Positions 29,491 to 61,954 of a DNA stretch of 64,000 nucleotides are shown in pieces. The stretch comes from Thermanaerosceptrum fracticalcis. Its GTDB lineage: Bacteria; Bacillota; Peptococcia; DRI-13. The notes under the pieces were generated by a model, which was given only the letters and a program-made list of their open reading frames with translations, did not search any database and was not told where the DNA came from. Both the position numbers and the translations under genes were made by a program. The stretch's first letter is position 1. Each line of letters opens with the position of its first letter. Where the stretch lies: NCBI RefSeq assembly GCF_000746025.2, contig NZ_CP045798.1:3641501-3705500 (forward strand). Reading direction: 5' to 3'.

Positions 29491-30117
29491 ATGACAACCT
29501 GTGGCTGCCGCCTGGGTGAAAAGAGGGTGCCAAACCCCGAAGAGTTTTTACGGCAACATCCTGATAAAAAATATCAGGAATTAGGCCGTGTCCTGGCCAG
29601 AAACAGGGAAAAACCCGAAAACCTGATTACTGTGCTCCATGAGGCCCAGCTTATCTTTGGTTATTTACCCAGTGATGTACAAATTTATATTGCCGATGCC
29701 TTAGATGTGCCCATCAGTGAGGTCTACGGCGTGGTTACTTTTTATTCCCTTTTCACCACTGTCCCTCGGGGAAAATATACCATTTCTGTATGCCTGGGGA
29801 CGGCTTGCTATGTAAAAGGGGCGGGAGATATTATGGAAGCCTTCAAGGAAAATTTAAAAATTGACGAAGGTGAGACTACCCAGGATGGTCTTTTTACCCT
29901 GCAAAGTGCCCGCTGTATCGGGGCCTGCGGGTTGGCCCCCGTTTTAACCATCAATAATGATATCCATGGCCAGTTGACCCCCGATGATGTTCCTAAACTC
30001 CTTGACCGTTACCGGGAAGCTGTCCAAAAAGACCAGCCCCTCAGTCAAGCCCGCATCCATAACAAGGACAGGAAAGTTGGGGGACCCGCTGAGGAAGGAG
30101 AGAAGAAAAGAGTATGA
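29491..30117 (+). CDS. hndA: NAD(P)-linked [FeFe]-hydrogenase, NuoE-like subunit HndA
   Basis: The protein of about 208 residues is of the 24-kDa NuoE/HndA type. It carries a thioredoxin-like [2Fe-2S] domain with CLGTACYVKG and SARCIGACGLAPV, which provide four cysteines in the usual spacing. The N-terminal helical part has ENLITVLHEAQLIFGYLP. ATG 29491 follows AAAGGGTGGG; an upstream GTG at 29479 lies inside that site. It is first of four overlapping genes encoding a soluble, possibly electron-bifurcating hydrogenase linking NAD(P)H and ferredoxin to H2. Confidence 0.93.
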   Translation: MTTCGCRLGEKRVPNPEEFLRQHPDKKYQELGRVLARNREKPENLITVLHEAQLIFGYLPSDVQIYIADALDVPISEVYGVVTFYSLFTTVPRGKYTISVCLGTACYVKGAGDIMEAFKENLKIDEGETTQDGLFTLQSARCIGACGLAPVLTINNDIHGQLTPDDVPKLLDRYREAVQKDQPLSQARIHNKDRKVGGPAEEGEKKRV

Positions 30118-30515
30118 AGTCCCTGGAGGAATTAAAAAAGATTAAAGAAGAGACCCGGGAGCGTATGGCACTCAGGGAGGCAAAGGAAGGCCAGGTGCGT
30201 GTTACGGTGGGAATGGGTACCTGTGGTATTGCGGCAGGAGCCCGGGAAATTTTAAATATTCTCCTTGAAGAGATCAACAAGCGGAATTTACCCTGGGTAG
30301 CGGTGTTAACCACCGGTTGCCCGGGGATATGTAAAAAAGAGCCCATCGTCCAGATTACGGAGAGTGAGGGTACTACCTATACCTATGGAGAGATGACGCC
30401 GGAAAGGGTAAAAATAGTGGTAGCCCGGCACTTGGTAAACAAACAGCCCGTGTGGGACTGGCTGATAGGTACCCGCAATCCCTGTGGACATAGGGGAGGG
30501 GAGCAAGAGGCATGA
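30114..30515 (+). CDS. hndB: [2Fe-2S] thioredoxin-fold subunit HndB
   Basis: The 133-residue protein is of the HndB type, with cysteines in VGMGTCGIAAGA (~36) and TTGCPGICKKEP (~67). It overlaps hndA by four bases (ATGA) and hndC by four. HndB is present in four-subunit enzymes (Desulfovibrio and Clostridia) and absent from the three-subunit HydABC form, so this locus is of the HndABCD type. Its role in electron transfer is taken from the family. Confidence 0.9.
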   Translation: MKSLEELKKIKEETRERMALREAKEGQVRVTVGMGTCGIAAGAREILNILLEEINKRNLPWVAVLTTGCPGICKKEPIVQITESEGTTYTYGEMTPERVKIVVARHLVNKQPVWDWLIGTRNPCGHRGGEQEA

Positions 30516-32308: not shown

Positions 32309-32310
32309 TG

Positions 32311-34122
32311 ATGATGAAGGAAGAGCAAAAGGTCAGCCTGACCATTGACGGCAGAAAAGTGACGGTACCCGAAGGAATGTCGGTTTTAGAGGCGGCACGG
32401 CATGCAGGGGTGGATATTCCTTCCCTGTGCTATTTAAAGGGTGTGAACGAGGTGGGGACCTGCCGGATTTGTGTAGTAGAAATAGAGGGATCCAAAAACC
32501 TGCAGGCCTCCTGTACCTATCCTGTTTCTGAAGGTCTGGTGGTAAGAACCAATACCAAGAGGGTGCTGAAGGCCCGCCGTACCGTACTGCAGCTTTTGTT
32601 GTCGGAACATCCCCAGGATTGTTTGACCTGCTACCGCAATACCAACTGTGAACTCCAGGCCATGGCCCATCGTTTCAATATAGTGGAAATTCCTTTTCAC
32701 GGGGAGCGCACCACCTTTCCCAATGATGACAAGTCTGTTGCTGTCATGCGGGAACCTTCTAAATGTATTCGCTGCCGCCGTTGTATCGGTGTGTGCTCGG
32801 CTATACAAACAGCCTATGTTTATTCTGCTACCCATCGGGGTTTTGAGTCTATTATTTCCCCTGCCTTTGGGATGAGTCTGGATGATGTAGCCTGTATCAC
32901 CTGCGGGCAGTGTGCCAATGTCTGCCCTACTGCGGCTATACATGAGCCTGATAATACCAGTCAGGTGTGGGATGCCCTAAATGATCCGGAAAAATATGTT
33001 ATTGTCCAGGTGGCTCCCTCGGTTCGTGTTACCCTGGGAGAGGAATTTGGGTTTCCCATTGGCTCTGTAGTTACAGGACAGATGGTAGCTGCCTTGCGCA
33101 AGATGGGTTTTGCTAAGGTCTTTGATACAGATTTTACGGCCGACCTCACGATTATGGAGGAGGGTTATGAATTCCTGCAAAAACTAAAAGCGGGGGGCCC
33201 CTTCCCCCATTTAAGCTCTTGCAGTCCCGGCTGGATTAAGTTTTGCGAACACTTTTATCCCGAGTTCTTAGACTGTGTATCCACAGTTAAGTCTCCCCAC
33301 TCCATGTTTGGTGCTTTAGCTAAAACCTATCATGCTGAAAAAGTGGGGATAGACCCTGCCAAAATGGTGGTCGTCTCTGTAATGCCCTGTACTGCCAAAA
33401 AATATGAGCTAAACCGCCCGGAGATGAATGACAGTGGGTTTAAGGATGTGGATATAGCCATTACTACCCGGGAGTTGGCCCGCATGATTCGCCAGGCCGG
33501 TATTGACTTTGCCAATTTGCCGGAAGAAGAATTTGATACCCCCATGGGTATAGCCAGCGGCGCCGGCCTGATCTTTGGGGCTACAGGGGGAGTGATCGAA
33601 GCGGCTTTACGGACGATTTACGAGATCACCACAGGTAAGGAATTACCTTTACCCCAATATGTCCAGTCTCTTCGCGGCATGGATGGTCTCAAACAGGCGG
33701 AAGTTGAGCTGCCCCAGGGAAAAATCAGGGTAGCCATTGCCCATGGCACGGGGAATGCCCGGATGCTTTTAGAAAAAATAAAAAGCGGGGAAGTTTATCA
33801 TTTTGTAGAAATCATGGGTTGTCCCGGTGGCTGCGTGGGAGGAGGAGGGCAACCCATCCTCCCCTTGCGCAGGGGTTGGGAAGGGACCATAGATTATAGA
33901 ATGGATCGCGCCGATTCCCTTTATAAAGCTGAAAAGGAACTGCCCTACCGCAAATCCCATGAAAACCCGGCAGTAAAAAAGCTGTATGAAGAATTTTTGG
34001 GTCATCCCCTTAGTGAAAAGGCCCACAAGCTCCTGCATACCAGCTACACGCCCCGTTCCCGCTATCCGAAAGGGATTCCCCAGGTGTACGCGTTGCCTGA
34101 ACCTGCCGTATACGAACAGTGA
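32311..34122 (+). CDS. hndD: [FeFe]-hydrogenase catalytic subunit HndD/HydA
   Basis: The protein of about 603 residues has an N-terminal plant-type [2Fe-2S] domain (CYLKGVNEVGTCRICVVE), a His/Cys cluster (HPQDCLTC), a 2[4Fe-4S] domain (CIRCRRCIGVC, CITCGQCANVC) and the H-cluster domain. The H-cluster motifs are SSCSPGWIKF (L1, with Ser replacing the more usual Thr), MPCTAKKYE (L2) and MGCPGGCVGGGGQP (L3). A small-subunit domain ends the protein (LGHPLSEKAHKLL). It makes or oxidises H2. The start is one of three tandem ATGs after AGGAG at 32301-32305; 32311 is given, and 32314 is equally possible. No maturases (hydE, hydF, hydG) are in the window. Confidence 0.95.
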   Translation: MMKEEQKVSLTIDGRKVTVPEGMSVLEAARHAGVDIPSLCYLKGVNEVGTCRICVVEIEGSKNLQASCTYPVSEGLVVRTNTKRVLKARRTVLQLLLSEHPQDCLTCYRNTNCELQAMAHRFNIVEIPFHGERTTFPNDDKSVAVMREPSKCIRCRRCIGVCSAIQTAYVYSATHRGFESIISPAFGMSLDDVACITCGQCANVCPTAAIHEPDNTSQVWDALNDPEKYVIVQVAPSVRVTLGEEFGFPIGSVVTGQMVAALRKMGFAKVFDTDFTADLTIMEEGYEFLQKLKAGGPFPHLSSCSPGWIKFCEHFYPEFLDCVSTVKSPHSMFGALAKTYHAEKVGIDPAKMVVVSVMPCTAKKYELNRPEMNDSGFKDVDIAITTRELARMIRQAGIDFANLPEEEFDTPMGIASGAGLIFGATGGVIEAALRTIYEITTGKELPLPQYVQSLRGMDGLKQAEVELPQGKIRVAIAHGTGNARMLLEKIKSGEVYHFVEIMGCPGGCVGGGGQPILPLRRGWEGTIDYRMDRADSLYKAEKELPYRKSHENPAVKKLYEEFLGHPLSEKAHKLLHTSYTPRSRYPKGIPQVYALPEPAVYEQ

Positions 34123-43726: not shown

Positions 43727-43853
43727 GAAATATATATACAACAATATAAAACTGCGTTCAATAATATGGAACGATTTGATGGGGGTGAGAGTAAGGGGAG
43801 TTTTTTAGGCGTTGAAAGTTTATTAGTCCATTACAATATGGGGAGGTATGCTT

Positions 43854-44465
43854 GTGAAACTCATAACCTTAGTGGCTAAAGTGGACAAAGAAAAATGTAC
43901 GGGTTGTAAAACCTGTGCGAAGGTATGTCCCACAGTAGCGATTGAAATTGTGGATAGGAAAGCAGTTATTAACGAAGAATTATGCCGCGGCTGTGGCAAC
44001 TGTAATCAGAGATGCCCTGTTTATGCCGTGACCATGGAAAAGCTGGAGAAACCTTATAAGGTTTCGGTGGCTGTGGAGGATGTTCCTTATGAAAAGATTG
44101 ACGAGTTATGCAAAAAGGCCTTATTAAATCCTGAACAAATCATTTGCTACTGTACCGCTACCCGCGCTGAGGAAGTGGCGGCCGCAGTTCTAAAAGGTGC
44201 AAAATCTCCGGAAGAACTGTCGCAGCTTACCGGGGTTAGGACAGGTTGTAAGGTTGAATGTATTCAACCTATGCTTCGTCTCTTAGAAGCTCATGGCGTT
44301 ACACCTGTACCTCCAGAAGGTGGTTATCAATGGTATGGCCGGACCCCCACAATATGGGATATACCGGAGGAAGTAAAGAAAAAATATAGCAGCCGTGGCT
44401 TTTATTTCGATGAAGATATTAAACTCCTTAACAAAGTTAAAGATACTAGAAAGGAGGAGAAATAG
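43854..44465 (+). CDS. 2[4Fe-4S] ferredoxin fused to a BFD-like [2Fe-2S] domain
   Basis: Residues ~1-65 are a bacterial ferredoxin with CTGCKTCAKVCPT and CRGCGNCNQRCPV. Residues ~95-145 look like a BFD/Fer2_BFD [2Fe-2S] domain, with ICYCTATRAEEV and, 33 residues on, TGCKVEC. The last pair spacing is C-x3-C rather than the usual C-x2-C. The C-terminal ~50 residues are unique. GTG 43854 follows GGGAGG by 7 bases; ATG 43848 is too close to it. It is the first gene of the catabolic operon and stops two codons from the next start, so it may donate or accept electrons for the LarA-like enzyme or its maturation, which is inference. Confidence 0.82.
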   Translation: MKLITLVAKVDKEKCTGCKTCAKVCPTVAIEIVDRKAVINEELCRGCGNCNQRCPVYAVTMEKLEKPYKVSVAVEDVPYEKIDELCKKALLNPEQIICYCTATRAEEVAAAVLKGAKSPEELSQLTGVRTGCKVECIQPMLRLLEAHGVTPVPPEGGYQWYGRTPTIWDIPEEVKKKYSSRGFYFDEDIKLLNKVKDTRKEEK

Positions 44466-45911
44466 ATGTTGAGAAAGCCTATTACCCCGCAGAAACCCCG
44501 TGTGTCCCAGTATGGTGTGGATCCTAAATATGTAACGAAAAGGGTAGCCGAATATCCTGAGATTACCTCCGTTATGTTGAGTGATCTGTTTCCTGATACT
44601 CCCAAGGTGATTTACCCCAGTGAAAAGGGTATTGCCGCTGTAAGGGAAGCTGCCGAAAAAGCCTTAGAAAACATCGATATGAGTATGATAAAACCCGGAG
44701 ACTCTGTTAATGTATGTGCCTCTCACCATGGCTTTACCTTACTGGGTGGAGAGCCTTATGCGGAGCTTTTGCGGACAGTCAGAGATGTGATTGCCAGAAA
44801 AACCGGAACCGACAATATTCGTTTAAGAGCCGGGGTTGGTCTTCGCTTCCGGGAGACTGAAGAATATATTAAAGCTTTTAAGCTGGATGAACACTATAAA
44901 GGTAAGGCCCGTGGCGTAGCTCCTGTTGATGAAGGCATACCCATTGAAACTGAGATAGGGACCCTTTATGGGATTAAGGCTATTTATGATGCTGACTGGA
45001 TAGTTCACGTTCATAACAGTGATGTGCGCGAAGTCCACTTCCACCGCCAGGTTGACAGGGCGGTAAAACCCTTTGGCATGTCTTATGCCAGGATTGAAAC
45101 CCGTTCCACATATCACCAGAATTTGGGCCCCAGAGGGGCCAACTTTACCGCCCGTTCTATCTTTGCTTCAGAATTTGTACAAAGCAAGTTTGCTTTCACT
45201 GCCTTTCTGGATATGTCGCCTGTGGGTGTGGTGGGTGTTGATGCCGACAATGACCTCTATGCCTTAAACGACAGGCTAACCGTGGCAGGCTGTAAATATT
45301 ACGGGAAAATTATGACTCTTTTGGGGCAAATAGATGAGTGTATTGCCGCTTTAGATTTCCCCTGCCCCGTACCTTATGTATTTGCTGCTGGTGTCATCTA
45401 TGCCAACTTCGTAGGGGCCAATGTAGATCTCTTTGATTTAGAAGGTGACCTGCCTCCTTATACCTGGTATACGGAAGCCTTCTATGGCAAGGACGGTAAA
45501 CCTTTAATCGAGGGAGTTGCTCCCGTTAACCCCGCTATTAAGATGTGTGTGCAAAATTACGGGTGGGGTGGTTATCCCAGCGCCTTCTTCAGTGAACACA
45601 TTCCCACCATCGTTGTAGGCCGGGAACAGGCAGAAGTAATGAACCGTGACCCCCAGAATATCGAATACATGTCTCATGCAGTAATTGCTGATAACCTTGA
45701 TACGGCAATGGCATTTGCCTATAAGACTGCCAAAACCGATAAAGTGATTATCTTTGACGGGGCAGCCGGTGGTATCAACGTCAGCGAATCCCTGGCCAAG
45801 TTCCTGATAGAAAAAGCTCCCTATGTCAACAAACTGGTGGATGAAGAATTACTCCCCAAATGGTTGCGTCAGCGTGGTGTAGACCCTGAGGTTCTGAAAA
45901 ATTTCAAGTGA
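44466..45911 (+). CDS. Distant LarA-superfamily protein, candidate nickel-pincer enzyme
   Basis: This 481-residue protein is not one I can name. Its layout parallels LarA. There is a G-D-x-V-x-V-x-A-S-H-H stretch (78-88) where LarA has its SDHTRP segment, and a motif GTDNIRLRAGVG (114-125) where LarA has the strand before His108. H191, K201 and H217 are spaced exactly as LarA H174, K184 and H200 (steps of 10 and 16). The C-terminal DNLDTAMAFAYKTAKTDKV resembles the LarA end. The His108 equivalent is not conserved (GLRFRE). Its position in a carboxylate-degrading operon and the LarC paralogue at 52622 support a nickel-pincer role. I rate the fold as likely and the cofactor as plausible. Confidence 0.65.
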   Translation: MLRKPITPQKPRVSQYGVDPKYVTKRVAEYPEITSVMLSDLFPDTPKVIYPSEKGIAAVREAAEKALENIDMSMIKPGDSVNVCASHHGFTLLGGEPYAELLRTVRDVIARKTGTDNIRLRAGVGLRFRETEEYIKAFKLDEHYKGKARGVAPVDEGIPIETEIGTLYGIKAIYDADWIVHVHNSDVREVHFHRQVDRAVKPFGMSYARIETRSTYHQNLGPRGANFTARSIFASEFVQSKFAFTAFLDMSPVGVVGVDADNDLYALNDRLTVAGCKYYGKIMTLLGQIDECIAALDFPCPVPYVFAAGVIYANFVGANVDLFDLEGDLPPYTWYTEAFYGKDGKPLIEGVAPVNPAIKMCVQNYGWGGYPSAFFSEHIPTIVVGREQAEVMNRDPQNIEYMSHAVIADNLDTAMAFAYKTAKTDKVIIFDGAAGGINVSESLAKFLIEKAPYVNKLVDEELLPKWLRQRGVDPEVLKNFK

Positions 45912-45938
45912 GCGGATTGTAGAAGGGGGATATAAAGC

Positions 45939-47183
45939 ATGAGTTTAGAAGTCAAAGAGGCTAGGAAAAGCATTATAGAACCGGGACCGGGATTTGCCAG
46001 CGGTTTAGCCGATCTGGGCAAACATTTAAACGCCAATACCATCACGGCCGGTACTGTGGCCGCCGTATTCGGCTGTACGGGGCCTGCGCTGATTGTCTTA
46101 AATGCCGCCCAGACCGGTAAATTGACACAGCCCCAGGCTATATCCTGGTTATTTGCCATTTACTTTTTCGGTGGTTTGATTAGTATTATCCTGGCCTTGA
46201 AATACAAACAGCCCATTAACGGTGCCTACTCCATACCAGGTGCTGTAATGCTCATTGATTCATTAAAAAACAATTCTCTAAGTGATGCAGCAGGGGCCTA
46301 TCTGGTGGCCGGTCTCATCGTCCTTATCCTCGGCTTGACAGGTTTGATCGGAAAAGTGATGAGATGGTTACCGGTTCCTATCGTCATGGCTATGATTGCA
46401 GGGGCTATGATCAGATTCGGTACAGGTATCGTAACTTCCACACAGGCTGCTCCCGTGATTGGCTTTGCCACCTTAGTTGGTTACTTTTTGGCACCTAAAG
46501 TTTCTAAAAAACTACCCCCAATTCTTACGGCTTTAGTACTGGGTATAGCCGCTGCCGGTTTCACAGGACAATTAAATTTTGCCGGGGTTCAATATAAATT
46601 AATCGGCCCGGAGATTATCATACCCACCTTTAATATGGGAACTATGCTTTCCATAGCCATCCCCCTAGCGGTGCTGGTCATGGGTGCGGAAAATGCCCAG
46701 GCCTACGGAGTTCTAGTTTCTCAAGGGTATAAACCCCCTATTAACACTATGACTATTATCAGTGGTATTGGTGGAATCCTTACTTCTTTCTTCGGTGGTC
46801 ATAACGCCAATATTGCAGGACCCATGACAGCCATTTGTTCTTCCGAGGAAGCTGGCGAAAACAAAGAAGGCAGATACGCAGCTACCGTTGTCAATGGTAT
46901 CCTCTTTGGAAGCTTCGGACTCATTGCCAGTATTGCTGTAGCCTTTGTCACAGGCTTACCTAAAACATTAATCGCCATTGTGGCCGGGCTGGCCATGGTG
47001 GGCGTTTTGATCAGTTCTTTTGAATATGCCTTTAGTACCAAAAAATTCAGAATGGGTGCTTTCTTCGCCTTAGTAATCGCCATGTCTGGCGTAACTATTC
47101 TTAAAATCAGTTCTCCCTTCTGGGCTTTACTGGGGGGCGTTGTTGCCTCACTGATTGCCGAACCCAAAGATTTTGACAGTTAA
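45939..47183 (+). CDS. BenE-family benzoate/carboxylate:H+ symporter
   Basis: The 414-residue protein has about 12 membrane helices. The family motif is visible as GGHNANIAGPMTAICSSEEAG near residue 285, followed by RYAA. BenE proteins take up benzoate and similar aromatic acids with protons. In this operon it probably imports the substrate of the downstream hydratase-aldolase route or its precursor. An aromatic or unsaturated carboxylate is likely, but not shown. GAAGGGGG precedes the ATG. Confidence 0.85.
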   Translation: MSLEVKEARKSIIEPGPGFASGLADLGKHLNANTITAGTVAAVFGCTGPALIVLNAAQTGKLTQPQAISWLFAIYFFGGLISIILALKYKQPINGAYSIPGAVMLIDSLKNNSLSDAAGAYLVAGLIVLILGLTGLIGKVMRWLPVPIVMAMIAGAMIRFGTGIVTSTQAAPVIGFATLVGYFLAPKVSKKLPPILTALVLGIAAAGFTGQLNFAGVQYKLIGPEIIIPTFNMGTMLSIAIPLAVLVMGAENAQAYGVLVSQGYKPPINTMTIISGIGGILTSFFGGHNANIAGPMTAICSSEEAGENKEGRYAATVVNGILFGSFGLIASIAVAFVTGLPKTLIAIVAGLAMVGVLISSFEYAFSTKKFRMGAFFALVIAMSGVTILKISSPFWALLGGVVASLIAEPKDFDS

Positions 47184-47207
47184 AAAACAGGTCTATAGGA
47201 GGTCATA

Positions 47208-48020
47208 ATGCACATTGCCCAGGATTTGCGGGACGATATATTTCTCTCGGTAATGCATAAAAAAGTAAGGGCCAATATTACTGTAGAAGACAGTGGTATC
47301 GTCTGTGGCATGAAATTTGCGGCAGAAAAATTAGATTCTTTGGGAGCCGTCATTCACCAAATGGTGAATGACGGCACTCCTGTAGAAAAAGGGGATGTAA
47401 TCCTTTCTTTTTCGGGAGATCCCAAAACTATTGCCATGGCGGAAGATCTGGTGATGGGCTATATTGCTAAGCCTTCCGGTATTGCCAGGGCGGCTCGGAA
47501 AGCAGTGGATTTAGCACAAGGTAAAATAGAGATAGTTAGTGGTGCCTGGAAAAAAATGCCCTTTGACATCAAACACCTGGTCCGTCACGGGATTATGACC
47601 GGCGGCTCCGCGGGCAGGATAGTACAAGGCCCTTTTATCTATCTTGATAAGAATTACGTGCGGATATTTGGCAGTGTCAAGGCGACCCTGGAAGCAGTGC
47701 GGGGATTGGAAGACTATGCCAAAGTCATTCAACTGCGGGGAGAAATTGAGGATATTACCACTGAAGCAAAGGCGGCAGTTGAGGGAGGAGCCTATGTCTT
47801 AATGGTGGATACCGGCTCTTTAGATGATCTGGCTGCTGTCAGTGAGATTGTTAAGAGGATGGGAGCGAGGCAAAAAGTAAAAATTGCTTTTGCCGGGTCA
47901 ATCAAAATAAAGGACATCCCCAAACTCCTTGAATATGACGTGGATATTTTGGATATTGGGACCCAGATTATTGATGCTTCTTTATTAGACCTGAAAATGG
48001 ATGTTGTCCACATTTATTAG
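47208..48020 (+). CDS. Divergent NadC/ModD-like phosphoribosyltransferase-fold protein
   Basis: The 270-residue protein has the quinolinate phosphoribosyltransferase layout: an N-terminal domain with DSGIVCGMKFAAEKL (~28) and GDVILSFSGD (~65), and an alpha/beta barrel with KIAFAGSIKIKDIPKLLEYDVDILDIGT (~225-252). Key catalytic parts are altered: the usual TRKTxPG reads AWKKMPFD, and the GGGxNHR reads GGSAGR. ModD proteins of molybdenum loci are similarly diverged. It may act on a pyridine or other aromatic carboxylate, or be a scaffold. It overlaps the upstream end of the next frame closely, and AGGAGG precedes the ATG. Confidence 0.78.
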   Translation: MHIAQDLRDDIFLSVMHKKVRANITVEDSGIVCGMKFAAEKLDSLGAVIHQMVNDGTPVEKGDVILSFSGDPKTIAMAEDLVMGYIAKPSGIARAARKAVDLAQGKIEIVSGAWKKMPFDIKHLVRHGIMTGGSAGRIVQGPFIYLDKNYVRIFGSVKATLEAVRGLEDYAKVIQLRGEIEDITTEAKAAVEGGAYVLMVDTGSLDDLAAVSEIVKRMGARQKVKIAFAGSIKIKDIPKLLEYDVDILDIGTQIIDASLLDLKMDVVHIY

Positions 48021-48033
48021 GGGGATTAAGCCA

Positions 48034-48927
48034 ATGGAGCTAAACCTATTAGAAAAAACCGAAGTGAGAATAACGGATATTGAGCTGGAAAATGCAAATT
48101 TGACTGACCTGGCTCAAACTGTGGCCGATGTTATGCAATTACCAAGGGATAAAGTGCTGGTAGTAGATGTAAGAAATGACCACATTGCCCTGGATATTCT
48201 CCAGAGAACCGTTCAGGCAGAACAAATATTTGGGAAAAAAGGGGTTTTATTGGCAGCACTCGCCAAGTTGCCGGGGGTGCGTATTAAAACCTCAACGGAT
48301 ATCCATTCTGATGGCATCCTGGGTTATATCGGCTTAGATGAAGCTGAGGCCCACGTTGTTTTAGAACGGACCAGGTCCATGGTCAATAACATCATGTCTC
48401 AGAAACGTTCTAAGGCAAGAGTTTATCCAACGGGCTTTGAGATAATTGAAGGCAAGATTGAGGATACCAATACACCTTATATCGCCAAAAGAATGGAAGA
48501 GGCAGGGTTTATTGTTGAGATCGGGAAAGCCATCCATGACAGTAAAGAGGCTATTGTCCAAAGCTTAAAAGAGGCCGCCAGCCACTGTGGTGTTATCATC
48601 ACTACCGGCGGTGTAGGTGCCGAAGATAAGGATTTTACTATTGAAGGGATACTGGCTTTGGACCCGGAGGCTGCCACACCTTTTATCGTGAAATTTACTA
48701 AAGGACAGGGGAGACATGTCAAAGAGGGCGTCAAAGTTGGGGTCGGGGAGTATAACAACAGCTTGTTAATTGCTTTGCCAGGGCCTCATGATGAGGTAAA
48801 GATAACCGTGCCTCTAATCATTGAAGCTTTGAAAAATAATTATGACAAACATAGACTGGCTCAAATGTTAGTCGATGCGCTGCGGCACCGTTTACAGGAA
48901 AAAGCAGCCCATTGGCACCATCATTAA
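48034..48927 (+). CDS. MoaB/Mog-like domain protein with His-rich C terminus
   Basis: The 297-residue protein has an unassigned N-terminal ~135 residues. Then comes a MoCF_biosynth fold: TGFEIIEGKIEDTNTPYIAKRM (~140), IITTGGVGAEDKDFTIEGI (~190-210) and ALPGPHDEV (~250). In MoaB/MogA/CinA this fold binds nucleotides or molybdopterin and adenylylates it. The final residues are AAHWHHH, a possible metal site. ATG 48034 follows AGGGGG by 9 bases. It pairs with the NadC/ModD-like gene just upstream. No molybdoenzyme is encoded nearby, so a role in a different nucleotide cofactor is possible. Confidence 0.8.
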   Translation: MELNLLEKTEVRITDIELENANLTDLAQTVADVMQLPRDKVLVVDVRNDHIALDILQRTVQAEQIFGKKGVLLAALAKLPGVRIKTSTDIHSDGILGYIGLDEAEAHVVLERTRSMVNNIMSQKRSKARVYPTGFEIIEGKIEDTNTPYIAKRMEEAGFIVEIGKAIHDSKEAIVQSLKEAASHCGVIITTGGVGAEDKDFTIEGILALDPEAATPFIVKFTKGQGRHVKEGVKVGVGEYNNSLLIALPGPHDEVKITVPLIIEALKNNYDKHRLAQMLVDALRHRLQEKAAHWHHH

Positions 48928-48947
48928 ATAAAAAGAGGTGAAGAAAA

Positions 48948-49733
48948 ATGGATAAGGAGTTTATCGTCAAAGCTGCCGAGGCCTTAAGAGTGGCCATGAC
49001 AAACAAAAAACCTATTTCCGCTTTAACTGAACAAAAACCCGATATCACCATCGAAGAAGCTTACCAAGTACAACTGGTTAATGTGGAAGAGGCCGTAAAA
49101 GCTGGAAAAAGGATTGTGGGTAAGAAAATCGGCTTAACCAGTGTGGCTATGCAGAAGTTTTTAGGCGTTAATGAGCCTGATTATGGACATCTTCTGGATA
49201 CCATGATCTGGGATGAAGAAATCCCCATTAGTTTAAGTAATTTATTACAGCCTAAAATTGAAGCTGAAATCGCTTTTGTCCTGGGTGATGATTTACAGGG
49301 ACCTGGAGTAACTCTTACCGATGTATTAAGAGCTACTGCAGGAGTCGTTCCTTCTTTTGAAGTAATTGACAGCCGTATTAAGGATTGGAAAATCAAAATA
49401 CAGGACACCATAGCTGATAATGCCTCCAGTGCAGGCATTACTTTGGGCAGTCAGCTTATACCTGTTAACCAGGTGGAGCTAAAATATGTGGGAATGGTCT
49501 TACAGAAGAACGGGCAGATTATCGAAACGGCCGCAGGTGCCGCTGTCATGGGGCATCCTGCGTTAGCCGTAGCCTGGCTGGCTAATAAATTAGGTTCTAT
49601 GGGCATCGGTTTGAAAAAAGGAGAAATAATTTTGTCCGGTTCTCTTACGAAAGCAATAGAAGTAAAAGCAGGAGATGTGTTTGTAGCTACTTTTGGCGGA
49701 TTAGGTTCCGTTAAAGCAGTGTTTACAGAATAA
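48948..49733 (+). CDS. mhpD: 2-oxopent-4-enoate hydratase (MhpD/DmpE-like)
   Basis: The 261-residue protein has the hydratase signatures GKKIGLTSVAMQKFLGVNEP (~50) and PKIEAEIAFVLGDDL with the metal-binding acidic pair (~98). Members hydrate 2-hydroxypenta-2,4-dienoate (2-oxopent-4-enoate) to 4-hydroxy-2-oxovalerate. Related members decarboxylate 4-oxalocrotonate (DmpH); the two cannot be separated with certainty. It is first of a three-gene meta-cleavage lower pathway module. Confidence 0.88.
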   Translation: MDKEFIVKAAEALRVAMTNKKPISALTEQKPDITIEEAYQVQLVNVEEAVKAGKRIVGKKIGLTSVAMQKFLGVNEPDYGHLLDTMIWDEEIPISLSNLLQPKIEAEIAFVLGDDLQGPGVTLTDVLRATAGVVPSFEVIDSRIKDWKIKIQDTIADNASSAGITLGSQLIPVNQVELKYVGMVLQKNGQIIETAAGAAVMGHPALAVAWLANKLGSMGIGLKKGEIILSGSLTKAIEVKAGDVFVATFGGLGSVKAVFTE

Positions 49734-49751
49734 AGATGAGGAGTGACACGA

Positions 49752-50657
49752 GTGGAAAAAATAAAAGCAGCCATCATTGGCCCCGGCAACATCGGAATGG
49801 ACCTCATGTACAAGATATTGAAACGGGCCAGAAACATCGAACTAGATACTGTAACAGGTATTATTGCGGATTCTGAGGGACTGATGCTGGCAAAAAGTCA
49901 TGGGTTTAATACTTCTGCCGAAGGAATCGAGGCCATTATCAAGCGGGACGACATTAAAATTGTTTTTGATTGTACCAGTGCCAAAGCCCATCTCAAGCAT
50001 GCTCCGATCCTTAAAGCCCATAAGAAAATAGCCATTGATCTGACCCCGGCGGCAGTGGGACCCTATGTCTCCCCCGCTGTCAATATGCTGGAGAACTTTG
50101 ATAGTGACAATATCAACCTGATTACCTGTGGCGGGCAGGCTACTATACCTATAGTTGCCGCCATCAATAAGGTTGCTGATGTGGAATACGCGGAAATAGT
50201 GGCCACCATTTCCAGCCGCAGCGCCGGTCCCGGGACCAGGCAAAACATTGATGAGTTTACCCAAACAACGGCTAACGGTTTGGTTAAAGTAGCAGGGGCA
50301 GATACCGCCAAGGCTATTATCATCCTGAATCCTGCCGAGCCACCTATTATGATGAGAAACACCATTTACTGCCGGGTAAAAAATCCCGATCATATGGCCA
50401 TTATGGCTAGTGTTACTGAAATGGTGAGCAGAGTTAAAGAATATGTACCTGGGTATACCCTGAAACTGGCGCCCATTGTTGATGGAAACAAAGTGACCAC
50501 AATGATTGAAGTGGAGGGTGAAGGTTCATACTTACCCAAATATTCGGGCAACCTGGATATTATTACTGCCGCTGCCCTGGGGGTAGCGGAAAAAATCGCT
50601 GAAAACATGCTAAAAGACGCAGAAAAAGTTGTAGAAAAGGGGAGGGCTGCCCAATGA
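49752..50657 (+). CDS. mhpF: Acetaldehyde dehydrogenase (acylating)
   Basis: The protein of about 301 residues starts [21 protein letters not shown] (NAD site) and has the catalytic Cys in [16 protein letters not shown] near 130. It turns acetaldehyde, passed through a channel from the aldolase, into acetyl-CoA with NAD and CoA. GTG 49752 is chosen, 8 bases after GAGGAG; a GTG at 49743 overlaps that site. It overlaps the aldolase gene by four bases. Confidence 0.94.
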
Positions 50658-51658
50658 AAAAGGTTAGAATATTTGATTCCACGCTGCGCGACGGTATGCA
50701 TGCCGTCAGCCACCAATTTACTCCCGAAGATATGGCTGCAATTGCCCGGGCTCTTGATGAAGCTGGTGTAGATACAATCGAGATGGGTCATGGTGACGGT
50801 TTGGGCGGCTCATCCTTCCAGTACGGGTTTGCCAAGGCCTCTGACGAAGACTATCTCAGAGCAGTTTCTTCCGTAATCAAAAGAGCTAAACTGGACATTC
50901 TTTTAATTCCCGGTATAGGGACGAAAAGAGACTTGGAAAAGGCGGCCAAATACAATGTAAAAGTTGCGCGGATTGCCACCCATGTTACGGAAGCAGATAT
51001 TGGGGAGCAGCATATTAAAATGGCTAAAGACTATGGTATGGAAGCTATAGGATTCTTGATGATGGCCCATATGGCTCCCCCCGAAAAAGTGGTAGAGCAG
51101 GCAAAGCTTTTTGAAAGCTATGGCGCCGATGCCGTTTATGTGACAGATTCTGCCGGGGCTATGGTGCCCCATCAAGTGAAAGAGAGGGTAGCCGCTGTGA
51201 AAGCTGCTGTTCAGATACCGGTAGGGTTTCATGCCCATAATAATCTAGGATTAGCCATTGGCAATTCCCTGGCTGCCTTTGAAGCAGGGGCCGATTATAT
51301 TGACGGCACTGTGAAAGGTTTGGGGGCAGGGGCCGGTAATGCTCCTACGGAAGTTTTAGTTGCTGTGTTTGACAAACTTAATGTGGAAACGGGTGTGGAC
51401 CTCTATAAAATAATGGATGTTGCGGAAGATGTGGTAACACCGCGTATGCACAGACCTCAGGTTATTGACAAGGCTGCCCTTACTTTAGGATGGGCCGGCG
51501 TATATGGCAGTTTCCTGCTTCATACCTTCCGTGCTGCCGAAAAGTTTAAGGTTGACCCCAGGGATATACTTGTTGAATTAGGTAAAAGGAAGACTGTCGG
51601 CGGACAGGAGGATTTAATCATAGAAGTAGCTTATCAACTGAGCCAATCCCCAAAATAG
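50654..51658 (+). CDS. mhpE: 4-hydroxy-2-oxovalerate aldolase
   Basis: The 334-residue DmpG/MhpE-type aldolase has [17 protein letters not shown] (Arg, Asp and His of the active site) at the start and [15 protein letters not shown] (metal His pair) near 195-208. It splits 4-hydroxy-2-oxovalerate to pyruvate plus acetaldehyde. With the dehydrogenase it forms the DmpFG channelling complex. Together the module feeds central metabolism without oxygen, but its usual upstream ring-cleavage dioxygenases are absent here. Confidence 0.95.
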
Positions 51659-51791: not shown

Positions 51792-52569
51792 ATGGGTACT
51801 CAAGGCAAAAACGGTCTTACTATACAATCAGTAGAAAGAGCCCTGGCTATTCTCGAAGAATTTAGCGTCAGAGAAAGAGAACTTGGCGTGACTGAGATAG
51901 CTAAAAGGGTAGGGCTAAATAAGAGTACCTGTTTCAACTTGATTAACACCCTGCTGCAAAAAGGATATCTGGAACAGAATCCTGACAATGGCAAATACCG
52001 TTTATCTTTAAAGATTTTTCAGCTTGGGAAAATATATGAAGCAGGTTTAGAGTTACGGGAAATTGCTAAGCCTTTTCTGCAGGAATTAGTGGATAAGACG
52101 GGAGAAACTGTTCACCTGGTAATAAGGGACAGAAGAGAAGCTGTTTATTATAGAAAAAGTGGAAGGGCCCAGTGCCATTAAAATTATTTCACAAATAGGC
52201 ACTAGAGTTAATCTTCATTGTACAGGCGTAGGAAAGGTTCTATTAGCTTTTTTGCCAAGTGAATATATTGATAGACTTACACAACATCCCCTGAAAAAAT
52301 TTACAGAAAATACCATAACTGATAAAGAAAAATTATTAGCACATCTCAGAGAGATTAAGGAAAAAGGATATAGTATTGATGATGAGGAGATTGAGGTCGG
52401 TTTACGCTGCGTAGCTGCACCGATTTTTGACCACAGGAAAGAGGTTATCGCTGCAATCAGCGTTTCCGGCCCAACCATCAGGATGACTTATGAAAAAATC
52501 AATGAGTTAACAGAAATTGTTAAAGAAACAGCTTTTAATATTTCAGTGAGGTTAGGATACACTAAATAA
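51792..52569 (+). pseudogene. IclR-family regulator with a frameshift
   Basis: The first part (130 codons, 51792-52181) has the IclR winged helix (SVERALAILEEFSVRERELG, then TEIAKRVGLNKSTCFNLINTLLQKGYLE). The second part has the effector domain (VNLHCTGVGKVLLAFLP, EEIEVGLRCVAAPIFDH). The join is a +1 shift near 52147-52152: reading ATT ATA GAA AAA GTG GAA restores IIEKVEGPSAIKI. Either one T has been gained or this is a sequencing error. IclR proteins of this type control aromatic and carboxylic acid routes, so it probably regulated the upstream operon and the LarC-like gene. Confidence 0.88.
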
Positions 52570-52621: not shown

Positions 52622-53707
52622 ATGTGCTCTATCTATATTGATTGTCCATCAGAAATAAGTTCATGTGCATTATTGGCGGGTATGATCGACTGTATGCTTA
52701 TAGATCTTGACAAAATTAAACAAGATTTAAGTTATCCAGTCGGGGGTAAAGGGCTGATAAACGCCAAAAAGTTAGTTAAACAAGGGTCTACGGTGACTTT
52801 GCTTATACGCGATGTGTCAAGACAAATTAATTTGAGTGAAGCATACGAGATTATTGGCAATATAACACCGGAAGCAAAGGTCAACCGCAAATTAAAAGAG
52901 TATTTAGATTATCATACCGATTCTTCTGTTGAAAAAATATCGTTACAGGATCTTCTGGTTGCTGCGATAATAATATATAGTCTGGAAAAGTCAGACATAA
53001 AAAAAGTTATTTGTTCTTCTATTAAGGGGCGAATTAATAACCCGGCTTTGCTAAAAATTTTACCAGGTATGTTAATGAAAGGAGATTTTTCAGTAACTTC
53101 GTCTCTAGACATTTCCACCCTGGCATTGTTAAAAATAATTGTCCATGAATACAGTGATACTTTCACAATAAAGGTAAAATCGGTAGGGATTGGTTATCAT
53201 AGTTTAACACAAGATGAGGGTATAAAAATATTTCTCGTAGAAAGCACTTATGAAAAGTACAGGGAGGTGGATGTTATAGAAACAAATATTGATGATATGA
53301 ACCCGCAATTCTATGATTATGTATGTGAAAAGATAAGAGCTCTTGGAGCACATGAGGTATATCTGACTCCAGTCTATATGAAGAAAGGTAGACCAGGCAT
53401 CGTCATAAGAATTATATGTAGTCCTTCTTTAACCCATTCCGTAATTAGGTTAATCTATCTGGAGAGCTCTTCTATCGGTGTTAGAGTATATAAAGCCTTT
53501 ACTACAAAAGCTGAAAAAGAACTACATGAAATTCATACTCCTTACGGAAAAGTACGTGTTAAAACAGCCCAAAATGGTGGAAGTTTAGTAAATGTGAGTC
53601 CTGAATATGAGGATTGCAAAAAAATAGCGATAAAGACTGGGAAACCCTTAAAGTTCATTTACCAGGAAGTGACAAACATATTCTTACAAAGTCAAAGTGA
53701 GAATTGA
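52622..53707 (+). CDS. Divergent LarC paralogue (nickel-pincer nickel insertion protein)
   Basis: The 361-residue protein aligns end to end with LarC (compare 58890-60107). The C-terminal half (~215-361) is well kept: ETNIDDMNPQFYDYVCEKI, VYLTPVYMKKGRPG, ESSSIGVRVYKAF, SPEYEDCKKIA. The N-terminal half has lost the His-rich linker, the FDCFSGISGNM start (here YIDCPSEISSC) and the HEVHFHEVGAVDAIID motif. In LarC the C-terminal region binds CTP and inserts nickel into the pincer nucleotide. This copy may be a dedicated, altered nickel inserter for the LarA-like protein of the adjacent operon. AAAGGAGG precedes the ATG. Codon use is more AT-rich than the neighbours. Confidence 0.82.
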   Translation: MCSIYIDCPSEISSCALLAGMIDCMLIDLDKIKQDLSYPVGGKGLINAKKLVKQGSTVTLLIRDVSRQINLSEAYEIIGNITPEAKVNRKLKEYLDYHTDSSVEKISLQDLLVAAIIIYSLEKSDIKKVICSSIKGRINNPALLKILPGMLMKGDFSVTSSLDISTLALLKIIVHEYSDTFTIKVKSVGIGYHSLTQDEGIKIFLVESTYEKYREVDVIETNIDDMNPQFYDYVCEKIRALGAHEVYLTPVYMKKGRPGIVIRIICSPSLTHSVIRLIYLESSSIGVRVYKAFTTKAEKELHEIHTPYGKVRVKTAQNGGSLVNVSPEYEDCKKIAIKTGKPLKFIYQEVTNIFLQSQSEN

Positions 53708-58889: not shown

Positions 58890-60107
58890 TTAATCTTCCT
58901 TTTCAGTAACAAAGGTTTTATAGCCTAAAGTCATGGCTTCCTGGTAGATTTCTTTTAGGGGGATTCCCGTTTCCCGGGCGATAGTACGGCAGTCTTCGAA
59001 TTCGGGAGCGATATTTACGATTTTTCCTCCTGTTTTGGCTGCTTTAATCCGGACGGGACCGTACTTTGTTTCTAACACATGGGAAGATCTGACCAATTTA
59101 CGGCGGGTTACCTGGTACATCCGTACGCCTATGGTGGTAGATTCCGTAAATATGATATCGAGAAGAGGCTGGTGATCAGCCAAGTTGCTGGTCACGGATA
59201 AGAGCGTCCCCGGCCTGTTTTTTTTCATGTAAACGGGGGTAAGGAAGACATCGGCGGCGCCGGCCGCAAAGAGTTTTTCCATCAGGTAGTTGTAGAATTC
59301 AGGGTTCATATCATCAATTGTAGTTTCAATAATGGTGGAAGCATCTTCTTCTTCGGCTTTATCCACCAGTTCACCGACAAAAAGTCTCAGGACATTAGGA
59401 ATGGGGAGGTCCCAGGTTCCCGCTCCATAGGCAATTGACTCTGTTTTCAAGGGAGGCAGTGGGCCGAATTCCCGGGCAAGGGTGCTGATGATGGCAGCTC
59501 CCGTAGGTGTTACCAGTTCGCCTTTGATTTCACCGCTGTAAAAAGGGATACCTTTTAACAGTTCAGCAGTGGCAGGGGCGGGAACAGGCATGAGGCCGTG
59601 GGAGCATTTTACCATGCCGTTTCCCACATGGAGATGGGACGCATACACTCTGGGAGCACCCAGGTAATGAAAACAAAAGGCAGTGCCTACAATATCAATA
59701 ATGGCATCTACGGCACCTACTTCGTGGAAGTGGACTTCGTGCAAAGCACAGTTATGGACCTTGGCTTCCGCTTCTCCCAGGCGCTGGAAAATTTCAAGGG
59801 ACATGCCTTTCACTTTCGGGGACAGGGTGCTGTTTTCAATTATTTCTGTGATGTCCTGGAGGTTCCTGTGCTGGTGATGGCCATGCTGGTGTTCTTGGTG
59901 ATGGTGGTGGGGAAGCTTCACATCAAAATAGGCGGCGCTTATTCCTAATTTTTTTACCCGTTGATAAACCAATTCGTATTCATTATGTAAGGGCAGTTTT
60001 TGCAGTTCCCGGGCCAGGCACTCCAAGGGTATCCCGGCGTCCAGAAAGGCACCGATGACCATGTTGCCGCTAATACCGGAAAAACAGTCGAAATATAGAG
60101 CTTTCAT
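58890..60107 (-). CDS. larC: LarC, nickel insertion protein of nickel-pincer cofactor synthesis
   Basis: The 405-residue single-chain LarC has FDCFSGISGNMVIGAFLDAG at the start. It has a His-rich linker (HHHHQEHQHGHHQHR near 67-81), LHEVHFHEVGAVDAIIDIVG near 123, ELVTPTGAAIISTLA near 195, and the C-terminal CTP/nickel region (ETTIDDMNPEFYNYLMEKL, VYMKKNRPGT). LarC uses CTP to put nickel into the pyridinium dithiocarboxylate nucleotide. Unlike the Lactiplantibacillus gene, it is not split by a frameshift. It lies 5 bases after larB. Confidence 0.94.
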   Translation of the reverse strand: MKALYFDCFSGISGNMVIGAFLDAGIPLECLARELQKLPLHNEYELVYQRVKKLGISAAYFDVKLPHHHHQEHQHGHHQHRNLQDITEIIENSTLSPKVKGMSLEIFQRLGEAEAKVHNCALHEVHFHEVGAVDAIIDIVGTAFCFHYLGAPRVYASHLHVGNGMVKCSHGLMPVPAPATAELLKGIPFYSGEIKGELVTPTGAAIISTLAREFGPLPPLKTESIAYGAGTWDLPIPNVLRLFVGELVDKAEEEDASTIIETTIDDMNPEFYNYLMEKLFAAGAADVFLTPVYMKKNRPGTLLSVTSNLADHQPLLDIIFTESTTIGVRMYQVTRRKLVRSSHVLETKYGPVRIKAAKTGGKIVNIAPEFEDCRTIARETGIPLKEIYQEAMTLGYKTFVTEKED

Positions 60108-60112
60108 TGTTG

Positions 60113-60862
60113 TTACCTCGCGTCTTCGTTAATAATGGCGGCTAATCTTCCGGCGCCGAAACCGTTATCGATATTCACCACGCCAACTCCGGCAGCACAG
60201 CTGTTTAACATGCAGAGGAGGGCGGAGAGGCCGTGAAAGTTGGCGCCATAGCCCACGCTGGTAGGTACGGCAATGACCGGGCGGGAGACAAGGCCGCCTA
60301 CCACGCTGGCCAGGGCCCCTTCCATTCCCGCTACGACAACCAGGACATTGGCCTTTCTCAGCTTATCAAGATGGGCCAGGAGGCGGTGCAGCCCGGCTAC
60401 GCCTACGTCATAGAGACGCTCCACCCTGTTGCCCATGATTTCCGCCGTGATGGCTGCCTCTTCCGCCACGGGAAGATCGGCTGTGCCGGCGCTTACGACC
60501 AGGATGGTCCCTTTATTAAGCTGGAGGGGTTTCCGGTTCACCACCACCATCCGGGCTAAGGCATGATATTCGGCTTCAGGACATACTTCCTTAATGGCTT
60601 CATAGGCCTCCAGGCTGGCCCGGCTGGCCAGGATATTGTTACTGTTTTTGGCCAGGTAACCGACAATTTCTTTAATCTGCTGGGGAGTTTTACCCTGGCA
60701 GAAAATGACCTCAGGATGATTTTGCCGCAACGCCCGGTGGTTATCTACTTTGGCAAAGCCCAGGTCCTTAAAGGGTAATTCCTTAAGCTGTTCCATTCCT
60801 TCCTCGACAGTGACTTTTCCCTGCTGGATAGCTTGTAGAAGTTTTTTGATCTGTTCTTGCAT
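60113..60862 (-). CDS. larB: LarB, pyridinium-3,5-biscarboxylate mononucleotide synthase
   Basis: The 249-residue protein has a PurE-like carboxylase domain in its C-terminal half (VVSAGTADLPVAEEAAITAEIMG near 122; GMEGALASVVGGLVSRPVIAVPTSVGYGA near 177). It carboxylates and hydrolyses nicotinate adenine dinucleotide, the first step to the nickel-pincer nucleotide. GGAGG lies 8 bases ahead of ATG. It forms a unit with larC. Confidence 0.93.
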   Translation of the reverse strand: MQEQIKKLLQAIQQGKVTVEEGMEQLKELPFKDLGFAKVDNHRALRQNHPEVIFCQGKTPQQIKEIVGYLAKNSNNILASRASLEAYEAIKEVCPEAEYHALARMVVVNRKPLQLNKGTILVVSAGTADLPVAEEAAITAEIMGNRVERLYDVGVAGLHRLLAHLDKLRKANVLVVVAGMEGALASVVGGLVSRPVIAVPTSVGYGANFHGLSALLCMLNSCAAGVGVVNIDNGFGAGRLAAIINEDAR

Positions 60863-61079: not shown

Positions 61080-61880
61080 CTACAGTGTCTCATTCATACT
61101 TCCCTGGCGGTAGCCAAGAAGGTCCAGGGTCACATAGGTGTAACCAAGTTTTTTTAATTCCCTAGTAACCTTATCACCCATATCAGGCGCGGTAATCCGG
61201 GGAAAAATTTCCGGGGGCAGTTCTATGCGGGCCAGCTGGCCGTGGTCCCTAACGCGCAGTTGTTTTTCTCCTAAAAGGTCTATGAGGTAATTCTCAGCCT
61301 GTCCCACCCGCTGTAAGATTTCCCGGGTAATAGTGGTGCCGTAGGGGACCCGCGTGGCTAAACAGGGTTTGGAGGGTTTGTTCCATACGGCTAATCCGTA
61401 AGAGCGGGCCAATTCCCTGATTTCTGCTTTGCTTAATCCCACTTCCAGTAAAGGACTTTTCACCCCCAGTTCCAGGACGGCCCTGTGCCCGGGGCGGTAG
61501 TCATTTTGATCATCGGCGTTAGACCCCTCTATGACCCAGTTTAATCCCTGTTCCTTGGCCAGTTCTAAAAGACCCAGGAAGCGGAACTTTTTACAATGAT
61601 AGCACCTATCCGGCGTGTTGGCGGTGAAGTTTTCATTCTCCAGGTCGGCCACCGGTACCAGGAGATGTCTGGCTCCTATCTGTTGGGCATAGAGCTGGGC
61701 TTCTGCAATTTCCTCTTCAGTGGATAATTCGGAAGCTGCTGTAACGGCAAGGACCTTTTCTTCTCCCAGACTTTGCCGGGCTACAGCCAGGAGCAGGGTA
61801 CTGTCTACTCCTCCGGAGTAAGCCACCAGCACACTGCCTAATTGTTTGAGGTTATCCTGCAATCTTTTAAGTTTCTCCAT
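61080..61880 (-). CDS. larE: LarE, sulfur insertion protein of nickel-pincer cofactor synthesis
   Basis: The protein of about 266 residues is of the PP-loop ATPase family (AYSGGVDSTLLLAVA near 22) with the LarE pattern: DRCYHCKKFRFLGLLELA near 85 and NKPSKPCLATRVPYG near 172. The three cysteines (two in CYHC, one in KPCL) resemble cluster-type LarE, which transfers sulfur catalytically, rather than the single sacrificial Cys form. It adenylates and sulfurates the LarB product. ATG 61880 follows AAAGGGTG; the longer frame to 61910 is rejected. It is separated from larB by a repeat-filled gap. Confidence 0.92.
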   Translation of the reverse strand: MEKLKRLQDNLKQLGSVLVAYSGGVDSTLLLAVARQSLGEEKVLAVTAASELSTEEEIAEAQLYAQQIGARHLLVPVADLENENFTANTPDRCYHCKKFRFLGLLELAKEQGLNWVIEGSNADDQNDYRPGHRAVLELGVKSPLLEVGLSKAEIRELARSYGLAVWNKPSKPCLATRVPYGTTITREILQRVGQAENYLIDLLGEKQLRVRDHGQLARIELPPEIFPRITAPDMGDKVTRELKKLGYTYVTLDLLGYRQGSMNETL

Positions 61881-61954
61881 ATTATCACCCTTTCTTAAAG
61901 AAAAAGCCACGAAAGCAAAACCCTTTTCTGGGCAGCCTTCATGGCTATCGTCAG

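Follow-up and report, generated by a model that had tools for sequence, protein, structure and literature searches.

In the excerpts of two studies on which we draw (PMC12611868, PMC11770544), enzymes of the LarA type, which carry the nickel-pincer nucleotide (NPN) cofactor, appear as racemases and epimerases. Here we examine a 64,000-nucleotide stretch of the Thermanaerosceptrum fracticalcis genome (NZ_CP045798.1, positions 3,641,501 to 3,705,500; "the window"), in which two adjacent genes at 47208-48927 encode a protein related to NadC, the quinolinate phosphoribosyltransferase (QPRTase), and a protein with a MoCF domain. An earlier note on this DNA had placed both genes in a LarA-like operon and suggested that they build or handle a nucleotide cofactor for its enzyme. 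Both open reading frames (ORFs) lie where that note put them, and the 481-residue protein encoded upstream, which belongs to no Pfam or NCBIfam family, is nonetheless LarA-like by fold comparison. The pair belongs to the module of the LarA-like gene, to which we can add a ferredoxin partner, gene fusions and a furan-catabolic context.

Furfural and furoate are relevant to biomass processing and to cooked food, and anaerobic degradation of furanic compounds is named an open question in part of one study (PMC6604932). Among the papers listed in searches of the open-licence PMC literature on anaerobic furoate, on NPN with furoate, and on NPN with QPRTase or MoCF proteins, none describes this system.

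A conserved four-gene module

Three samples were analyzed: a close-relative set of 60 genomes that includes the source genome (one contig, 3.8 Mb); a species-genome collection scanned with an alignment of the LarA-like protein, which yielded 131 relatives, 80 of them kept as loci; and a phylum census of 398 evenly drawn genomes. In the close relatives the LarA-like, NadC-like and MoCF genes number 12 each, not counting a 47-residue LarA-like fragment; one MoCF gene is cut by a contig end, and each set lies on one contig. Around the 80 LarA-like loci we found the ferredoxin gene in 78, the NadC-like gene in 68, the MoCF gene in 66, and a gene for a 2-oxopent-4-enoate hydratase-like protein in 64. 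Where at least 9 kb is available on both sides (33 loci), the corresponding counts are 33, 31, 31 and 32. In the census, 27 genomes have the LarA-like gene and 30 the NadC-like gene, with an overlap of 27 (P = 7e-39); the two lie on one contig within ~10 kb in 24 of these 27 genomes and on separate contigs in the other three. The NadC-like and MoCF proteins are fused, both at full length, at three loci (L070, L073, L074). Thus, ferredoxin, LarA-like, NadC-like and MoCF genes constitute one conserved module, and the pair almost certainly works in one process with the LarA-like protein, as the earlier note had suggested.

NadC-like genes without a LarA-like gene occur in G093 and G410, beside MoCF on short contigs of metagenome-assembled genomes (MAGs), which may be assembly gaps, and in G134, a complete genome and the true exception. 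Both members of the pair have full-length orthologues with invariant residues throughout, and so are not chance ORFs. Mirror-tree correlations of 0.83 (LarA-like and ferredoxin) and 0.65 (NadC-like and MoCF) agree with these associations but are raised by common ancestry and carry no weight in our argument. The module is found in acetogens, sulfate reducers, gut Clostridia, Bacilli and an Archaeoglobus MAG. Its presence in named cultured strains, including Moorella thermoacetica, Clostridium magnum and Flavonifractor plautii, makes the ideas developed below directly testable.

In the window, the module is part of a run of eight plus-strand genes (43848-51658), downstream of which are a split IclR regulator and then a LarC-like gene. 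Genes for LarC, LarB and LarE lie on the minus strand, ~5 to 8 kb beyond the operon. The features are:

43848..44465, plus strand: ferredoxin with two [4Fe-4S] motifs and a BFD-like [2Fe-2S] domain (Pfam Fer4, Fer2_BFD)
44466..45911, plus strand: LarA-like enzyme P0001, 481 residues (fold match; invariant H191-K201-H217)
45939..47183, plus strand: BenE-type aromatic acid transporter, likely the substrate importer (Pfam BenE, 282.5 bits; in 44 of the 80 loci)
47208..48020, plus strand: NadC-like protein P0002, apparently a QPRTase fold with a re-tooled active site (Pfam, NCBIfam, alignments)
48034..48927, plus strand: MoCF protein P0003, with an N-terminal domain (1-120) and a predicted MogA/MoaB-fold domain (125-271) (Pfam, NCBIfam, model)
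48948..49733, plus strand: 2-oxopent-4-enoate hydratase-like protein, DmpE family (NCBIfam catechol_dmpE 317.4 bits, below the cut-off of 408.8)
49743..50657, plus strand: acetylating acetaldehyde dehydrogenase, DmpF (TIGR03215 437.9 bits, above the cut-off of 282.25)
50654..51658, plus strand: 4-hydroxy-2-oxovalerate aldolase, DmpG (TIGR03217 531.3 bits, above the cut-off of 286)
51792..52569, plus strand: IclR-type regulator in two overlapping frames (an intact single frame of ~257-298 residues in relatives)
52622..53707, plus strand: LarC-like protein (LarC2 133.3 bits, above the cut-off of 50; no LarC1 match)
58890..60107, minus strand: LarC, nickel insertion (Pfam Ni_insertion 499.8 bits; one of two Ni_insertion matches genome-wide)
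60113..60862, minus strand: LarB, the sole one found in the genome (genome search and ORF)
61080..61910, minus strand: LarE-like sulfur insertase, presumably (an ORF named from reading its sequence)

The IclR gene is broken around 52159-52181; since it is intact in relatives, this reflects a frameshift or a sequencing error. Second LarC homologues downstream of MoCF were also seen in Alicyclobacillus loci (L121, 13219-14424; L125, 8151-9329). A gene of the M24 family (Xaa-Pro dipeptidase-like) accompanies BenE and the module in 41 of the 80 loci (for example L060:8229-9353), with none seen in the operon of the window; its substrate might be an acyl-amino acid of the aromatic acid. Elsewhere in the window, a distant Lar_N protein (1338-2630, minus strand; 33.8 bits) adjoins genes for a 2-hydroxyacid dehydrogenase, an FAA hydrolase, an RraA-like aldolase and an Ldh_2 dehydrogenase, and these make up a second, separate hydroxy-acid cluster. 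HydABC-like [FeFe]-hydrogenase genes (NuoF-like and Fe-only hydrogenase subunits) at 29479-34122 on the plus strand are a possible source or sink of ferredoxin.

Folds and conserved sites

The LarA-like protein matches no Pfam or NCBIfam family up to E = 1 and is not among the eight Lar_N matches of its own genome. A structure model built from a 12-sequence alignment (mean predicted local distance difference test score, pLDDT, 71) gave Foldseek E-values of 8.8e-8, 2.5e-7 and 2.8e-7 to three LarA-family entries, the sole matches under 0.001. With VIA, 11 LarA entries scored Z 14.0-15.9, and the next match 6.6. Judged on this model, the protein is a deep branch of the LarA fold that is invisible to Pfam and NCBIfam. 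In an alignment of 88 LarA-like sequences (77 loci retained, three of the 80 excluded as cut or shifted genes), H191, K201 and H217, spaced by 10 and 16 residues, are invariant, and the same H-10-K-16-H spacing occurs in 23 of 25 canonical LarAs. K201 and H217 align with the Lys and His located after the catalytic His of LarA, in a weak profile alignment whose register came from a smaller alignment. We infer that they may map to cofactor residues of LarA; H200 of L. plantarum LarA is a nickel ligand. In that enzyme a Lys tethers the cofactor (K184 is the presumed tether) and a His completes the nickel site, according to passages of PMC11796402.

The first catalytic histidine of the racemase mechanism is His108, as given in the part of PMC12611868 considered here. 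Its equivalent in the LarA-like protein falls on or next to L126, a position occupied by L, M or V in all 88 sequences, and two catalytic histidines are thus not found. The ferredoxin gene lies on the same strand within 20 bp of the LarA-like gene in 78 of the 78 loci where it was found, and 13 cysteines of its product are kept in 77-78 of the 78; it is the presumed electron partner of the LarA-like protein.

The NadC-like protein carries the two-domain QPRTase signature (Pfam QRPTase_N 51.6 bits, cut-off 27; QRPTase_C 53.9 bits, cut-off 23.1) and scores below both equivalog cut-offs (NCBIfam nadC 104.9 versus 198.4 bits; ModD, TIGR01334, 35.2 versus 178.85 bits). By these profile scores it has a QPRTase fold and is neither a NadC nor a ModD equivalog. 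In the census its family stands apart from true NadC, with members above 170 bits and the next matches at or below 108. The source genome also has a separate NadC-type gene, lower-scoring in the NadC-like search. We compared 59 family members with 13 true NadCs (three of 16 true-NadC loci were dropped for lack of TRKT or length; fusion proteins were kept out of the NadC-like and MoCF alignments). The comparison bears out the altered TRKTxPG and NHR motifs described in the earlier note. These motifs and KDNH are not found as such: WKK stands in the TRKT region, K115-K116 takes the place of the Arg-Lys pair, and in NHR the His varies while the Arg (R137) is kept in 58 of 59. K116, D201 and T202 are present in 59 of 59 members, and N149, K115 and K148 in 58. 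Relative to NadC, Lys replaces two substrate-site arginines (K88, K115) and Asp replaces the Lys of KDNH (D147, 59 of 59), while two acidic residues that hardly vary among NadCs give way to Gln (Q175, 59 of 59) and to Arg or Lys (R/K177). The alignment suggests a pocket that is conserved yet built for a different ligand, and makes classical phosphoribosyl pyrophosphate chemistry doubtful.

The MoCF frame opens at 48001, and its alignable start is the ATG at 48034. The protein matches the Pfam MoCF domain (77.8 bits) and falls under every curated NCBIfam cut-off (moaB 22.5/222.4, mogA 20.1/158, cinA 42.9/243.15, molyb_syn 78.6/85.35 bits). In a model with pLDDT 91.9, domain 125-271 has its best Z score (17.2) to Mog, which points to a MogA/MoaB-type fold preceded by an extra 120-residue N-terminal domain. 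G192, G193, G195, A196, E197, K199, D200 and E204 are invariant over 66 sequences. The protein does end in HWHHH (AHWHHH), as first described. A conserved metal-binding tail was considered and rejected, since the histidines are not conserved in the family. Of the proteins with related domains, CinA has pyrophosphatase activity.

The proposed cofactor role and its alternatives

In the census, LarB was identified in 26 of the 27 LarA-like genomes, versus 217 of 398 overall (P = 9e-7). In at least 11 of these 27 genomes it lies no more than 20 kb from the LarA-like gene. Across the 80 loci, LarB and LarC each occur in 23 and LarE in 15. Three of 35 genomes examined lack a Lar_N match (G005, G130, G173). 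G130 and G173 have LarB nonetheless, and with Lar_N absent the LarA-like protein is their sole recognized LarA-fold protein; G005 is outside the LarB draw. Since 217 of the 398 genomes have LarB and 30 the NadC-like gene, the pair appears special to the LarA-like branch rather than part of general pincer biosynthesis. In G134, a NadC-like gene whose product is without K115 and R137 lies directly beside LarB and LarE (L142, 9596-12418). Among three genomes of its order searched for further NadC-like genes next to LarB, G134 itself gave the single match. A canonical LarA of ~430 residues is encoded near the module in five of the 80 loci (L087, L090, L108, L110, L133). In G086, such a ~430-residue LarA, with LarC and molybdenum hydroxylase genes, adjoins a LarA-like fragment (L145).

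A role in handling a cofactor, one half of what the earlier note proposed, is plausible in view of the LarB association and the gene order in G134. The other half, phosphoribosyl transfer, finds no support in a protein with Q175, R/K177, D147 and two Arg-to-Lys changes. The suggestion of a mononucleotide variant of the pincer cofactor offers no contrast, as the known cofactor is already a mononucleotide according to passages of PMC11796402. We consider it fairly probable that the pair acts on an NPN-type cofactor. The simplest reading is that it tailors, releases or loads NPN for the LarA-like branch, because folds that bind pyridine mononucleotides (NadC) or process nucleotide-activated cofactors (MogA, MoeA, CinA) are here adjacent or fused, and dedicated to an NPN-type enzyme.

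In such a scheme, LarB, LarE and LarC would make NPN. The NadC-like protein, with a fold that binds nicotinate mononucleotide, would hold the NPN-like pyridinium mononucleotide, while the MoCF protein, with a fold that makes or breaks cofactor-nucleotide phosphoanhydrides, would add or remove a nucleotide, for example the cytidine monophosphate left by LarC (the Moorella LarC reportedly yields a cytidinylylated product). Acting after LarC, the pair would tailor or deliver the cofactor, passing it to the LarA-like protein, where K201 would tether it and H217 would bind nickel. Ferredoxin would then reduce the bound NPN, and an aromatic acid, most likely 2-furoate in loci with hydratase, aldolase and dehydrogenase genes, would receive a hydride on its ring from reduced NPN. 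Hydride addition at C5 with C-O cleavage would produce 2-hydroxypenta-2,4-dienoate, which hydratase, aldolase and dehydrogenase convert to pyruvate and acetyl-CoA. Furfural oxidation would supply the electrons.

The choice of furoate comes from the gene neighborhood. Three of three UbiD proteins tested from loci with module and hydratase have as their closest solved relative, by a wide margin, 6H6V (bits to 6h6v and to the next family: L056 687.9/240.4; L073 558.7/186.8; L099 580.6/193.6). This entry is PtHmfF, the Pelotomaculum furandicarboxylate decarboxylase, in the part of PMC8988006 consulted. In the census, every one of the top six HmfF matches (600 bits or more) is in a LarA-like genome, on the same contig and within ~16 kb (P = 6e-8); two of the next six (446-566 bits) are in LarA-like genomes. 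Genes for aldehyde oxidoreductases of the AOR type occur in nine of the 80 loci, and a tungsten aldehyde oxidoreductase converts furfural to furoate and reduces ferredoxin, according to part of PMC9424855. By formula, 2-furoate plus two hydrogens equals 2-hydroxypenta-2,4-dienoate, the substrate of the hydratase, and across loci no redox pair other than ferredoxin and the LarA-like protein is conserved ahead of the hydratase step. On the strength of the HmfF and AOR neighbors, the formula balance and this redox pair, we propose the LarA-like protein as a candidate furoate reductase.

Taken whole, the explanation that the NadC-like and MoCF proteins are the dedicated cofactor-tailoring pair of a ferredoxin-linked NPN oxidoreductase, probably a furoate ring-opening reductase, has in our view an even chance of being right. 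A bolder version is tentative, and we would sooner doubt it than accept it: a LarA-fold enzyme opens the ring of 2-furoate (in paralogues, of other aromatic acids) with ferredoxin-reduced NPN, in a new form, such as a dinucleotide or a trimmed one, provided by the NadC-fold and MoCF pair. If true, NPN would serve net redox catalysis for the first time, and aromatic rings would be opened without oxygen in a new way. More generally, with a ferredoxin-linked LarA branch the pincer cofactor, whose redox chemistry is otherwise hidden, would take part in net redox reactions as well.

Several observations weigh against this explanation, whose support throughout is comparison of genomes and structures. 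By sequence, the LarA-like profile finds no solved structure in the PDB up to E = 10, and its profile-profile match to canonical LarA is weak (hhalign probability ~1%, E 0.04-0.05), with no improvement from larger alignments (88 LarA-like versus 25 canonical sequences). The LarA-like family has many invariant histidines, and the same H-K-H spacing turns up in four of 224 unrelated ORFs of similar length; the model has pLDDT below 50 at 187-223, where K201 and H217 lie. The NadC-like protein has lost two acidic positions, and catalysis could be gone. LarB is common in any case (217 of 398), canonical LarA is also present in most module genomes, and G086 has the module and no LarB match. The NadC-like gene of G134, with neither LarA-like nor MoCF gene nearby, is also beside XdhC and ~6 kb from a molybdenum hydroxylase gene; this single case cuts both ways and may indicate a second role of the NadC-like family.

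On the side of the substrate, HmfF-type UbiD genes are present in nine of the 80 loci, one of them partial, and the source genome has no HmfF match; HmfF as a universal partner of the module was rejected for these reasons. Four modules, three in G003 (L049, L050, L051) and one in G005 (L055), lack genes for the hydratase, the aldehyde dehydrogenase and the aldolase and are surrounded by different catabolic genes, and one non-hydratase module stands with a VdcC-type decarboxylase (phenolic acid; 650.6 bits to 7ae4). Furoate is therefore ruled out as a universal substrate, and paralogous modules may act on other aromatic acids. These four modules also suggest that the pair goes with the enzyme and not with one pathway. 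They are ~50% identical and lie beside 2-oxoacid oxidoreductase, acyl-CoA, TRAP transporter or VdcC-type UbiD genes, and their substrates are probably other aromatic compounds.

The main rival, which we regard as unlikely, is that the NadC-like and MoCF proteins are structural or electron-relay subunits of the LarA-like protein, or its folding or insertion chaperones, with no cofactor chemistry. In G003, each of four LarA-like paralogues is accompanied by NadC-like and MoCF genes of its own, beyond the need of a trans-acting enzyme, and such sets are as compatible with subunits or dedicated chaperones as with enzymes. The pair also diverges faster than the LarA-like protein (mean distances of 0.59 for NadC-like, 0.53 for MoCF and 0.29 for LarA-like), and the loss of the acidic NadC positions points the same way. 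The polar site of the NadC-like protein (D147, Q175, D201 and T202, 59 of 59) and the conserved MoCF residues from G192 to E204 argue instead for ligands or catalysis.

Less probable still, the LarA-like protein could be an ordinary hydroxy-acid racemase or epimerase of the pathway, as are the characterized LarA homologues named in two studies (PMC12611868, PMC11770544, both in part), with the ferredoxin acting elsewhere. The replacement of the first catalytic His throughout the family speaks against this, as do the adjacent ferredoxin in 78 of 80 loci, the lack of any other reductase conserved across loci, and a hydratase substrate that equals furoate plus two hydrogens.

That the pair serves a molybdenum or tungsten cofactor, for AOR-type enzymes at these loci or for a molybdenum hydroxylase elsewhere, we hold to be very improbable. 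The MoCF fold, the AOR-type genes and the position of the NadC-like gene in G134 would suit such a role. Against it, a molybdenum hydroxylase gene is present in three of the 80 LarA-like loci and XdhC in none, compared with the NadC-like gene in 68 and MoCF in 66 (the LarA-like gene is in all 80 by construction), and a molybdenum accessory pair was rejected on the hydroxylase count. Linkage to molybdenum hydroxylases in place of LarA-like genes, which the earlier note had named as telling against its idea, thus came out the opposite way. Its statement that the window encodes no molybdoenzyme is not contradicted: none was found among ten operon and lar proteins and ten further window proteins scanned, the other window ORFs being judged by eye.

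Just as improbable is a proposal close to that of the earlier note, a true phosphoribosyltransferase giving an alternative entry to NPN (for example from pyridine-3,5-dicarboxylate) that bypasses LarB: the QPRTase fold, the retained K116 and R137 and the G086 module would allow it, but with LarB retained by 26 of 27 module genomes a bypass is unneeded, and the acidic positions of NadC are gone.

Comparison with known systems

The preferred explanation, a pair that tailors or loads NPN for the LarA-like branch, places the system near several described ones. With NadC, the NadC-like protein has in common both QRPTase domains and K116, R137, N149 and D201; it differs in scoring below the NadC cut-off, in two Arg-to-Lys replacements, in D147 for Lys, and in Q175 and R/K177 for the acidic pair. 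MogA, MoaB, Cnx1 and the COG1058 domain of CinA share with the MoCF protein the domain fold (Z up to 17.2) and the TTGG-G-D motif, whereas the latter lies below curated cut-offs, has the extra N-terminal domain and stands in a different genome context. The LarB, LarC and LarE genes of NPN biosynthesis are all present in the window, with LarB in nearly all module genomes; most genomes with LarB, however, are without the NadC-like family.

The LarA family (Lar_N/DUF2088, including the single-histidine entries 9q3j and 9q3k) shares with the LarA-like protein the predicted fold over ~335 residues (Z 15.9, 15.1) and the His-10-Lys-16-His spacing. The LarA-like protein differs in having no Lar_N match, no first catalytic His, a ferredoxin neighbor in nearly every locus and a context other than alpha-hydroxy acids. 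The single-histidine LarA subfamily, according to passages of PMC12611868, lacks the second catalytic His, unlike the LarA-like protein, which lacks the first. Finally, HmfF orthologues beside the module and furoate as the presumed hub are shared with HmfF and the aerobic Trudgill pathway of furoate. That route, in the part of PMC6604932 consulted, runs through furoyl-CoA hydroxylation to 2-oxoglutarate, whereas the route proposed here would be reductive and lead to 2-hydroxypenta-2,4-dienoate.

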